This document shows positions 15,329 to 19,595 of a stretch of DNA of 22,720 nucleotides, in pieces. Both the position numbers and the translations under genes were made by a program. Origin of the DNA: a virus. The notes below the pieces were generated by a model. The model made no database searches, was not told where the DNA came from, and saw nothing but the letters and a program-made list of their open reading frames with translations. Location of the stretch: positions 1 through 22,720 of the IMG/VR virus record IMGVR_UViG_3300020446_000087, one strand, 5' to 3'. Positions within the stretch are counted from its first letter, which is position 1. Each line of letters starts with the position of its first letter.

Positions 15329-18079
15329 TTAAGTGGCAAAGCAGAATGCGCCAGGCTGCTTGACGGCGAAATCAACATCTTGCAGAGCAATGATGCGAAC
15401 AGTGCCAGCAGTTGCACCTGCAAATGGATCAACTGTTAGATCCAGACCAGACCACATGGCCATGATCAGCTGAGAGAAATCACCAAACAGTGCATCGTTG
15501 TTACCGAGCTGATTCGAGACAGTTACGGGGTAACCGTTAATCTCGTCGTTCTCGTAAACAAACTGAGCAGTGCCGCTTGCCTTTTCGGTGCTCTTCAGAG
15601 CGCCACGGGCAGAAGCGTTAATGATGTAACGCAATGCGCCAGCATCAGCGTTAGCAACAGCAACATCGGTTTCCATCCCGATGTACTCAGCGAAGGTTCC
15701 GAAGCTGGTCAATGACTGAGTGCCAATGCCAGTGGTATTGATGATGCCGAGGGGCTGGTTAGAAGATCCAGAACCGTTTAGACCAACGCGATCAAGCTCA
15801 AGAGCCAAAACTTGAGCAAGGTCGTTACGGACCATTTGCTCAATGTCAATGCTGGACTGAAGCAGCAGCTTGCGGGAGTAATCCACGAAAGCACCACAAG
15901 TCTTCGGTGAAAGATTCACCTGCTCAATGGTTTGCTGGGATTCAGTTGGAGAAGAGCCCTCGCCAACCCAGTAGGCAGTTGCGGCAGCAGACTGCTTGGG
16001 AATTGAGATGTTGCCGTTGATGCCGCTCAAGGTGGTCATTCCAGCGCCAGCCAAGGCCAGCTTGTTGCGCAGCAGATCAATGAAGGAGCCGCTCAGAAGC
16101 ACATCTTCAACAAGATTGCCACCAGCAGTTGCAGTCCCAACATTCAAGTCACGACGCAGCACCTCGTTAGGAACAACGATGCCGTTTGAAGAACGGTCGT
16201 ACTTCTTGGCTGCTTCTGTGCCGACCTCAATTTCAAACTCAGCCTCACGACGCGCTGATGCATCGCTCTGATTAGCCAAGAAGTTCAGAGCGCGAACAAA
16301 GCTGAAGCGCTTAACTTCTTTTTGAGAAAGGCCGAGGTCATTAGAAGTGACATCGGTAGAACGGATGGGCTGTTCCACTTGAGAAGTTCCGATTTTTTCG
16401 AGGATTGCAGCACGAGCTTCATCAATGGAGTTGTCTCCATCAATTAGTTCTTGAGCTAGATCTGCCATGCGGTGCTGAGCACCCAGGGCACTGATAGCGG
16501 CAACGCGGTCTTTTTCGGCCTTTTTAGCCTCCGACCGGATCACCTCCAGGTTTGGAGCTTGATCTTCCATAACAGGAGTGGGTGTAGATGCGGTCGTGAC
16601 CGCTGAGCGAGTTTCCTGTTCTTCAACAGGAGCTTCGTTTGCAATAATAGTGTCTTCAGGTTGAGAAGATTCAGGCAGAGCAGCGTCTGGCGAAAGAAGT
16701 GACCGCCCAATTCCAATTGTTGGATCAGCCGGAATTGAGACCAAGCTCAGTTCGTGGACAGACCAACGTGTTGCAAGCAAACCATCTTCTTTTTCTTCGG
16801 CATCATCAATCTGATAACCGAATGAAATTCCACGCAAGATGCCGTCTTTAACGTCATCTAAGTACTGCTTGGCAAAATCAGAGCGCGAAAAACGAATTTT
16901 TGCGTAAGCACGTTTTTCTTCCTCATCCAGGTAGGCACGCTCAACCACTCCCAAAACTTTGTTTGGATCGTGGTTAAACAAAAATGGCGCACCATCGTTC
17001 AAGCGCATAAAGTCCGGCGCACCGGCCTCATGGCTCAACACTTCGTCACCAAAGTATCTTTTGACTGGATACTCTGAGCTGAACGGAAACTCGAAGCTGC
17101 GATCCTCTCCGGGAAGACTTCTGATAACAGAAGCCTCAGTGCGACTAAGAGGCTCTCCAAGCTTGGTGCGCTTAGAAGTTTCCTCAAGCTCTACTTCCCG
17201 GATGGGGGCGATCTTGGTCAACGTGCTAAATCGATGACCAACACGAGTGTCAGTTTTTTCACCGTTGCGATAAACGCAAATCAAGGCAGCAGGGTCATCC
17301 TCTGTGCCATTGATGGTGAAAGACGAATCTGGAACGTCGATGCTGCCATCGCGCTCGATTCGCTCGATTAAGCCACGAGCGCGACCACCAGAGCTGTTCC
17401 AGGAGACAAAGTCCCCTACTTTCAGCGCGTCAGGTGCAGCTCGTTGAGTTTCAGGTTCCATAGCCTTTTCGTTGGTGGCGGGCTCGAACTCAAGAGGTTC
17501 GTATTCATTATCGCGAAGCCATTGTCTAGCTTCACTAGCCGTAAAACGACTCAGTTTGAATCTTATCGACTGCAGCTCCAACGGATCGTCATCCTCGATA
17601 ATCCCGAAAATGAAGTCGATTCCAGCACCACCACGATCATTAGAGCGCCTAAATTCGTTAAAAAGCTCAGGATTCAGCAAACGAGCTGCATGCTCGTTGG
17701 GGTAAGGACGCTCCATTTCAATAACTTCCGAACGTTCACGCGCAGCTTTTATACGTTTTGACCGTGCATCAGACCAAGATTTTCCTGGGTCGCCACCCCA
17801 TGCAGCCCATGCCACTCTTCCGTTGCTTGGATAACCATCCTCTCCAGGGCTAAATCCCTTGCCTTGCTTATCGACCTCATGTCTTGCGAACCAAGCTGAC
17901 ATTTGAATTACCGTGTCTGCCGATAACTCATTGCCACTCAAAATTTGAGTGGCACGGGTACGAGCAACGTCAGTGCCACCAGCCTCACCCTCTGATTTCC
18001 AATCCCTATAACGCTGAGCCTCAGTCCTCATGCCTTCATTAGGCATAAGGTCAATCTCAACTCCGTTTACGTTTGCCAT
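15329..18079 (-). CDS. Fused capsid maturation protease and HK97-fold major capsid protein with extra N-terminal modules
   Basis: About 916 residues from ATG 18079; a TTG at 18127 would add 16 residues read from portal-overlapping sequence. The modules, in order, are as follows. About 15-115 contains FSPGEDGYPSNGRVAWAAWG and is often seen near phage capsid proteases. About 125-200 begins YPNEHAARLLNPELFNEF. About 215-292 is Tudor-like (KVGDFVSWNSSGG, VPDSSFTINGTEDDPAAL), as in the HVA1/DUF2945 family. About 315-460 is an HK97-type protease, with likely His370 in FNHD, Ser419 in LRGISFGY and Glu443 in HELSLV. About 510-565 is a helical linker or scaffold. About 585-916 is an HK97-fold major capsid protein (SNGIVVPNEVLRRDL, LALELDRVGLNGSGSSNQPL). 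The protease should cut itself and release the capsid subunit. The start overlaps the portal end by 23 bases. Confidence 0.9.
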   Translation of the reverse strand: MANVNGVEIDLMPNEGMRTEAQRYRDWKSEGEAGGTDVARTRATQILSGNELSADTVIQMSAWFARHEVDKQGKGFSPGEDGYPSNGRVAWAAWGGDPGKSWSDARSKRIKAARERSEVIEMERPYPNEHAARLLNPELFNEFRRSNDRGGAGIDFIFGIIEDDDPLELQSIRFKLSRFTASEARQWLRDNEYEPLEFEPATNEKAMEPETQRAAPDALKVGDFVSWNSSGGRARGLIERIERDGSIDVPDSSFTINGTEDDPAALICVYRNGEKTDTRVGHRFSTLTKIAPIREVELEETSKRTKLGEPLSRTEASVIRSLPGEDRSFEFPFSSEYPVKRYFGDEVLSHEAGAPDFMRLNDGAPFLFNHDPNKVLGVVERAYLDEEEKRAYAKIRFSRSDFAKQYLDDVKDGILRGISFGYQIDDAEEKEDGLLATRWSVHELSLVSIPADPTIGIGRSLLSPDAALPESSQPEDTIIANEAPVEEQETRSAVTTASTPTPVMEDQAPNLEVIRSEAKKAEKDRVAAISALGAQHRMADLAQELIDGDNSIDEARAAILEKIGTSQVEQPIRSTDVTSNDLGLSQKEVKRFSFVRALNFLANQSDASARREAEFEIEVGTEAAKKYDRSSNGIVVPNEVLRRDLNVGTATAGGNLVEDVLLSGSFIDLLRNKLALAGAGMTTLSGINGNISIPKQSAAATAYWVGEGSSPTESQQTIEQVNLSPKTCGAFVDYSRKLLLQSSIDIEQMVRNDLAQVLALELDRVGLNGSGSSNQPLGIINTTGIGTQSLTSFGTFAEYIGMETDVAVANADAGALRYIINASARGALKSTEKASGTAQFVYENDEINGYPVTVSNQLGNNDALFGDFSQLIMAMWSGLDLTVDPFAGATAGTVRIIALQDVDFAVKQPGAFCFAT

Positions 18080-19595
18080 TGCTGTGTTTGCGAGTGGGTT
18101 GAGCCTGTGGTGATTCAAGCAACTCAAGCTGCGTACCCTCGTCCGTCAAATCCAAATCCTTATCCAACTGGATGCCAGCTTCAGCAGCAAACTGTTGCTC
18201 CCTTGCCAAGGCACTAATCGTCTCGTCGTAGTCGCCGCCTGAATAAGACGAAATAACGTCAGCTTTGCTCAAGTAACCAGCCTGCTCTGCCTCGCGGAAA
18301 GCTTTGACTTCCTTTAAAGGATCAACCCAGCTCCAACCCCTTGGCATCCACTTGGCTTTGTTGTATCTCTCAGGACGCAATTCGTAATCAGCAAACGTAA
18401 GCTCGCCAGACAATACAGCAAGGCTTAGCCACTCCTTGAACACACGTCGATGGAGACTATCTATCAAGTACTTCTGCACAACCCGCCAGTGCTCACGATC
18501 CTCAAGCAATGACAGCCTGCTGCTGCTGTAGTTGGTGTCGCTGAAATCACGAGACAAAGTCTCGTAAGAACAGCCGAAGCCTGAGGCAAACCGTCGGATC
18601 TTATTTTTTACAAACATCTCGAACTGTTGATCCGGTGAATCAATATCAGGAACTGAAACGGATTCACCAGGCGAAAGATACTTAAATGTTCCTGGCTCAA
18701 ATTCACTTATTCTCTGACTGTTCTCAACGTCATCTGCAATCAATTCTCCCTCGTTATTTGTGATAAAGCCCATGATGCTTGCGCCAGCACGCGCACGAAT
18801 GACGGCAGCCTCCTCGTATCCCTGAAGCTGATGCACATCAGCCATGACACTATGGAACCAAGGCACTCCTCTGTTCTGGCCAGGACGTTCCGGCATAAAC
18901 AAATGAATAATGTCTTCTGCTGGCAAGAACAGGTGTTTTACGCTTGCTGACGGATGCCCCCCAACAAAATTATCACCAGGATGCCTAGTAAGAATTGCAT
19001 AACGAACAGGACGACCCCACTCGTCAACTTCGACGCCATTTCTCCACTCGTTTGCTGCATTTGATTTTGGACCGCTGTAATCTTCGTCAAGCAAATCGCT
19101 TTCCAGCATTTGCAGCGCAATCGGAATCTTTGAATCACCAAAAGGCCTTCTTACGATCCTAAAGATTGCCTCACCCGACTCGCACATTGCCCCTGCAGCA
19201 AGCCACTCAAACTCTTGAAAGTTATGCTTGCCAGCGCAGTCACAGCTATCAGCATGTGACCACTCTCGCCACTTAGATTCAATCGCTTGATTGATTCTGT
19301 TGTCTCGTTTATTGCCACGCAATTGCAGCACTTGAGATTGCAGCTTTATACCACTACCTACAACATTGATCTGTGTAGTTCTTTTTGCTTGTCTTGCATA
19401 TGGATTGTTCCGCACCATCTCGCGAGAACGATCACGCAAGCGACGCAAATTACCTTTAATCTCAGCGTCAGCACTTGACTGACTGGTCATCCAGTCAGAA
19501 GTGAGCCGAGAAACAATCGCACCGTTATAAGCACGACGCATTGGCTTGGGATTACCAAAACCCAAAAAACCCATGAGGCGAGTCCGAATACCCAT
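18057..19595 (-). CDS. Portal protein, lambda B-like
   Basis: A 512-residue portal of the lambda B family, which forms the dodecameric ring at one capsid vertex through which DNA enters and leaves. An N-terminal helical part (RRLRDRSREMVRNNPYARQA) is followed by VVGSGIKLQ, then the core with GEAIFRIVRRPFGDSKIPIA and LQMLESDLLDEDYSG. Further on come EVDEWGRPVRYAI, the FMPERPGQNRGVPWFHSVMA segment and the clip and crown region with ASGFGCSYETLSRDFSDTNY, a well-kept portal signature. The C-terminus is basic (TRKHSNGKRKRS). It starts at ATG 19595, a few bases after the connector stop (TGATCATG), and its last 23 bases overlap the capsid gene. A full-length family member with no sign of damage. Confidence 0.95.
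   Translation of the reverse strand: MGIRTRLMGFLGFGNPKPMRRAYNGAIVSRLTSDWMTSQSSADAEIKGNLRRLRDRSREMVRNNPYARQAKRTTQINVVGSGIKLQSQVLQLRGNKRDNRINQAIESKWREWSHADSCDCAGKHNFQEFEWLAAGAMCESGEAIFRIVRRPFGDSKIPIALQMLESDLLDEDYSGPKSNAANEWRNGVEVDEWGRPVRYAILTRHPGDNFVGGHPSASVKHLFLPAEDIIHLFMPERPGQNRGVPWFHSVMADVHQLQGYEEAAVIRARAGASIMGFITNNEGELIADDVENSQRISEFEPGTFKYLSPGESVSVPDIDSPDQQFEMFVKNKIRRFASGFGCSYETLSRDFSDTNYSSSRLSLLEDREHWRVVQKYLIDSLHRRVFKEWLSLAVLSGELTFADYELRPERYNKAKWMPRGWSWVDPLKEVKAFREAEQAGYLSKADVISSYSGGDYDETISALAREQQFAAEAGIQLDKDLDLTDEGTQLELLESPQAQPTRKHSNGKRKRS

Follow-up and report, generated by a model that had tools for sequence, protein, structure and literature searches.

Nested protease/scaffold genes are known from phage lambda (C/Nu3) and from the herpesviruses (UL26/UL26.5). 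Phage Mu has a comparable arrangement, in which an in-frame internal start within the protease gene gives rise to a second assembly protein (PMC4378225). Phage HK97 carries its S78 protease (gp4) as a separate protein, and its major capsid protein (gp5) has a 102-residue N-terminal scaffold domain (PMC10275583). A further group of phages, including VP882, phiHAP-1, ep3, S-CBS1, S-CBS3, S-LBS1 and CRP-811, encodes protease, linker and capsid as the single fusion protein phrog_617, and nearly all annotations of such fused genes show a single, very large major capsid protein. The open-licence literature searched contained no report of internal initiation of a protease-fused capsid protein, and no paper on DUF2945 in phages.

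Here, we describe a direct homologue of the phrog_617 fusions in a window of 22,720 nt (positions 1 to 22,720 of IMG/VR record IMGVR_UViG_3300020446_000087). It has the same protease-linker-capsid core but, unlike most phrog_617 fusions, bears N-terminal modules, termed M1, M2 and TUD, ahead of the protease. The S78 protease, the HK97-fold subunit and the helical N-terminal scaffold all resemble HK97, and a 413-aa product beginning at Met504 would reproduce the plan of the HK97 major capsid protein (PMC10275583). The locus differs from HK97 in having protease and capsid in a single frame, three modules ahead of the protease and a proposed capsid start within the fusion. From sequence comparison, we consider it likely that the gene is nested, encoding both a long protease-capsid form and a 413-aa scaffold-capsid product that starts at Met504. 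In Mu the nested product is a scaffold; the product proposed for this gene would instead be the major capsid protein with its scaffold domain attached. The protease-capsid fusion itself is of a known kind; the proposed nested capsid start and the shuffling of the modules are new.

Organization of the polyprotein gene

The gene is an unbroken minus-strand ORF of 916 codons, with its ATG at 18079 and its stop at 15329 (Table 1). It stands among head genes in the usual order of TerS, TerL (gpA type), head-tail joining protein, lambda-type portal and polyprotein gene, followed in profile searches by a Bbp16-like protein, a head-tail attachment protein, a tail terminator and a tail tube. The gene thus has the position of a phrog_617 fusion, between the lambda-type portal and head-tail joining genes. 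The same fusion was found in the best 80 relatives in IMG/VR, many of them 79-100% identical and on separate contigs. Full-length relatives on so many independent contigs rule out an assembly error or a frame break, and the uninterrupted frame described in an earlier sequence-only reading of this DNA stands.

Table 1. Features of the polyprotein locus (coordinates of the window)
Feature	Coordinates	Strand	Basis
Lambda-type portal gene, 5′ neighbour, overlapping the start of the polyprotein gene	18057..19595	-	ORF list and profile search
Whole polyprotein gene, M1-M2-TUD-protease-linker-capsid	15329..18079	-	Intact ORF, 916 aa
M1, residues 1-118, helical, phrog_2859-type	17726..18079	-	Profile match and AlphaFold2
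M2, residues 122-205, alpha/beta	17465..17716	-	Conserved module and AlphaFold2
Hva1-TUDOR-like module, residues 206-300, beta barrel	17180..17464	-	Pfam and AlphaFold2
S78 prohead protease domain, residues 351-453	16721..17029	-	Pfam; invariant His370, Ser419, Glu443
Strong synonymous-site conservation, about codons 466-515, in the linker, ending just past Met504	16535..16684	-	Codon comparison
Hairpin I, CCTGTT-gaag-AACAGG, 60 nt before the internal ATG	16615..16630	-	Sequence reading
Hairpin II, GCGGT-cacg-ACCGC, 33 nt before the internal ATG	16590..16603	-	Covariation of 5-bp stem
Proposed internal start codon, ATG (Met504)	16568..16570	-	ATG in 156/176 homologues
Proposed nested gene, scaffold (delta-like) and capsid protein, 413 aa	15329..16570	-	Inferred
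HK97-type capsid domain, residues 653-915	15335..16123	-	Pfam

Profile searches assigned the protease to Pfam Peptidase_S78 (E 1e-10) and the C-terminal domain to Phage_capsid (E 8e-44), and matched residues 315-915 as a whole to phrog_617, 'major head protein' (E 3e-151). The chain therefore has the phrog_617 layout of an S78 protease with its His, Ser and Glu residues, then a linker and an HK97-type capsid, all in one frame. His370 and Glu443 are invariant in 176 homologues and Ser419 is found in 175, with one gap; all three are present in each of the 18 isolates compared. Residues 10-111 matched phrog_2859 (E 2.5e-27). The Hva1_TUDOR family (DUF2945, PF11160) was matched by residues 222-267 at E 5.3e-5. 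Set against a cut-off of 24.1 bits, the protein scan fell just short (23.7 bits) and the genome search went over (28.5 bits); the relative in phage DC31 scored 36 bits. M2 matched neither Pfam nor PHROG, although it is a conserved module.

In AlphaFold2 models of residues 1-331 and 1-205, linkers of low confidence connect three folded units. M1 is helical in these models, M2 is alpha/beta, and the Tudor-like module is a small beta barrel with strands predicted at 224-290 (pLDDT about 90). In a fold search against the PDB, SH3/Tudor-like barrels matched the Tudor-like module weakly (best E 0.035), and M1 and M2 had no significant match. What this module shares with Hva1_TUDOR is a sequence match close to the Pfam cut-off and a barrel predicted by the model; in phages the domain differs in being found in head-gene proteins. 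The sequence-only reading had listed these modules, named the His370/Ser419/Glu443 triad and recognized an HK97-type protease fused to an HK97-fold capsid, all of which the searches bear out. It had also proposed a profile search of the N-terminal residues, whose outcome is given above, and a structure prediction of the whole chain, which was carried out on the two N-terminal segments.

Exchange of the N-terminal modules

About 300 viral loci were fetched, partly overlapping, so that the counts that follow are not independent. Among complete loci, the order before the protease was most often M1-M2-TUD (80) or M1-TUD (78), then M1-M2 (9) and M1-TUD-TUD (7); M1-TUD-M2, M2-TUD, TUD and M1 each occurred in 4, M1-M2-TUD-TUD in 1, and no module in 2. 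Named phages show the same variety: S-CBS3 has M1-M2, CRP-811 has M1-TUD, CRP-821 has M1-M2 with other sequence, and S-LBS1 has none. The claim in the sequence-only reading that so many modules before the protease are unusual holds in comparison with HK97, but not within the family.

The modules are shuffled across loci in which the capsid halves are nearly identical. One relative (L015) has a capsid domain identical to that of the window, with a second Tudor module in place of M2, and the Tudor module is in tandem in some relatives. DNA identity along the gene is 0.44-0.65 over the modules and rises above 0.9 past about codon 500, showing that exchange of the N-terminal half proceeds independently of the capsid half. 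On these comparisons the modules are accessory parts that recombine as cassettes, since there are family members without any or all of them.

M1 also occurs on other head proteins, including an XkdF protease (DC31), an S78 protease (phiPsal1), a Mu-F-like protein (locus L147) and a portal (HATV-3), and structure comparison with viral models added further prohead proteases, XkdF proteins and portals. M1 appears to be an accessory module that moves among head proteins; the phrog_2859 type is spread across phages and haloarchaeal viruses. In two loci (L143 and L147) M1, protease and capsid are each on separate genes. At about 4001-7400 of L143, L147 and L150, M1 lies on a Mu-F-like protein and protease and capsid are separate genes, the junction having been read in L143 and L147. 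In Limnohabitans phage DC31 (L309, 1329-3340), M1 and Tudor are carried by two adjacent genes, and the capsid gene, again separate, lies downstream of them. For Roseobacter phage CRP-823 (PV211013, 22088-24971) the annotation divides the capsid region into two genes, unlike those of CRP-821, CRP-822 and CRP-831; the gene may be split or contain a frame break. A single-sequence query found no prophage relatives in named genomes.

The internal ATG and the sequence before it

An in-frame ATG lies at the start of the scaffold-like region in all 18 isolates, 413-479 codons before the end of the gene, and is kept at the position of Met504 in 156 of 176 homologues despite a variable linker. The codon that corresponds to Met504 in S-CBS3 is Met409. 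The gene thus has a conserved in-frame internal ATG at a domain boundary, as expected of a nested head gene of the Mu or lambda type. Most members from proteobacterial phages have a Shine-Dalgarno (SD)-like site before this ATG, such as AAGGAG in CRP-811, AAAGGAG in CRP-821, GGAGG in CRP-406, AGAGG in VP882 and CGGAGG in R4C; ep3 and phiHAP-1 have one too. The duplex energy is -9.1 to -9.5 in CRP-811, CRP-406, VP882 and R4C. By SD strength the internal ATG ranked first among the in-frame ATGs in 7 of 14 phages, and the combined rank test gave p=2e-4 over the 14 and p=0.01 over six, one per lineage, both values treating related phages as independent. Mica and MQ-4 gave weak SD support and FoX1 gave none, and no SD was found before the internal ATG in the window, S-CBS1, S-CBS3 or S-LBS1. 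In L143 and L147, where the genes are split, the capsid unit stands as a gene of its own that starts AAGGAGGccactcaaATG, with AAGGAGG preceding its ATG.

The internal ATG of the window has the weakest SD score in the gene (dG +3.0), and the annotated start of the polyprotein gene likewise lacks an SD (dG +1.9). Gene starts across the window fall into two sets, one with a clear SD (TerL, portal, tape measure) and one without (the polyprotein gene, the internal ATG, 12763 and 14690).

Cyanophage-type members, including the window, have a covarying hairpin instead of an SD before the internal ATG. In the window, this element (hairpin II) has a 5-bp stem and a 4-base loop, with 19 nt separating stem and ATG. 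Of 27 divergent members, 18 have a hairpin of at least five Watson-Crick pairs with a tetraloop, where synonymous recoding predicts 4.4 (p=1e-10, a value that ignores relatedness); nearby control regions gave p 0.13-0.43 and two further ones p 0.011-0.012. The covariation score was 0.351 versus 0.112 (0 of 500 shuffles), with changes on both sides in four of the five pairs. By folding energy, the signal in the same region was weak (mean z -0.64). Rfam returned no known RNA family in the gene up to E 1.

The nucleotide sequence around the ATG is also constrained. Codon identity at about codons 466-515 is 0.91 against 0.64 expected, and clade by clade 0.91-0.95 against 0.57-0.64; synonymous counts were made pair by pair and clade by clade to guard against alignment bias. 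In three clades analysed separately, synonymous-site conservation reaches its gene-wide maximum at the internal ATG, at codons -26 to -7 relative to it in the window's clade and at -1 to +5 and +4 to +8 in the others. An overlapping ORF was rejected as the cause, no other frame being consistently open.

Recombination breakpoints lie close by, and part of this conservation could reflect homogenization. Identity between the window and L015, L017, L029 and L053 climbs from 0.57-0.81 to about 0.9 near codon 500, as it would if the junction between the module-protease and capsid parts were a crossover kept similar by gene conversion. We think it very improbable that the signal as a whole is such a by-product, as in clade 1 it stops at about codon 520 while the exchanged block goes on, and gene conversion predicts neither the covariation of the hairpin nor the SD sites.

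A different role for the stretch before Met504, as an internal promoter, an mRNA-processing site yielding a capsid-only transcript, or a ribosome-slowing hairpin that assists folding of the protease, would accord with the window's clade, where conservation extends about 115 nt upstream of the ATG and takes in a second hairpin and a TANTAT motif. We nevertheless judge it unlikely: the proteobacterial-phage relatives have an SD at the same ATG instead, the TANTAT motif is absent from some clades, and a capsid-only transcript would itself require an internal start. A universal promoter upstream of Met504 was rejected, the motif not being common to all clades. Hairpin I and the TANTAT motif occupy 16615-16649, upstream of the conserved hairpin II; in relatives, hairpin I has the form TCTCCT-caag-AGGAGA, and in some its 3′ arm includes AGGAG.

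Head volume and a model for a probable nested gene

Phages CRP-822 and CRP-406 have heads of 59-64 nm and genomes of about 30 kb (PMC12629253). From this head size we infer a T=7 shell of 415 subunits for the family. Were all 415 copies full length, about 635 residues of each would lie inside, amounting to 29 MDa and about 35,000 nm3. The interior offers about 24,000-34,000 nm3 at an assumed radius of 18-20 nm, taken from HK97-size procapsids, so that it would be about full or overfull; the nested product would occupy about 7,300 nm3.

These volumes bear on a rival interpretation of the gene as a pure polyprotein, in which every capsid subunit is the 916-residue fusion and the N-terminal modules serve as scaffold in all of them before being cut by the protease. 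In its favour, a single frame is conserved in hundreds of loci, the protease is in cis, and nearly all isolates have the fusion annotated as their major capsid protein. Even so, we regard it as quite improbable because, besides the crowded interior, it leaves the conserved internal ATG, the SD or hairpin and the synonymous constraint unexplained, and the modules are dispensable across the family. The suggestion in the sequence-only reading that the N-terminal ~300 residues act as an internal scaffold is accordingly poorly supported as a statement on every subunit, on grounds of volume, internal ATG and dispensable modules. A role of the modules in the head interior is plausible because proteases, Mu-F proteins and portals can carry M1 too, and such modules would most likely be borne by a minor, protease-bearing form.

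The simplest reading, and the one that we consider likely, is a model in which a nested gene yields two proteins. The long product of 916 aa would be a prohead protease fused to a capsid subunit, with three exchangeable modules ahead of it, and the second, of 413 aa, would comprise an HK97-like N-terminal scaffold region and the capsid domain. Judged from the sequence, most of the protein made is probably the 413-residue form, with the long form minor. A few copies of the long form would co-assemble through their capsid domain, carrying the protease and the M1, M2 and Tudor modules into the procapsid, where the protease would remove the scaffold and destroy or release the N-terminal part.

We propose more tentatively, as a possibility that we hold at somewhat less than even, that in cyanophage-type members the capsid protein starts at an SD-less internal ATG governed by a new conserved RNA hairpin. 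The hairpin (5-bp stem and tetraloop, 16-34 nt upstream in most members) would replace the SD of the proteobacterial-phage relatives. As an RNA element not described before, it would determine how much free capsid protein is made relative to the protease-capsid fusion; the swappable modules would be borne by the minor form alone.

If the internal capsid start is real, gene models, mass estimates and assembly schemes for a widespread phage family would need correction, and there would be no need to fit hundreds of protease domains into a small head. The switch from SD to hairpin offers a natural test of SD-independent initiation. The shuffling of the modules reveals a fast-evolving accessory layer in phage head assembly.
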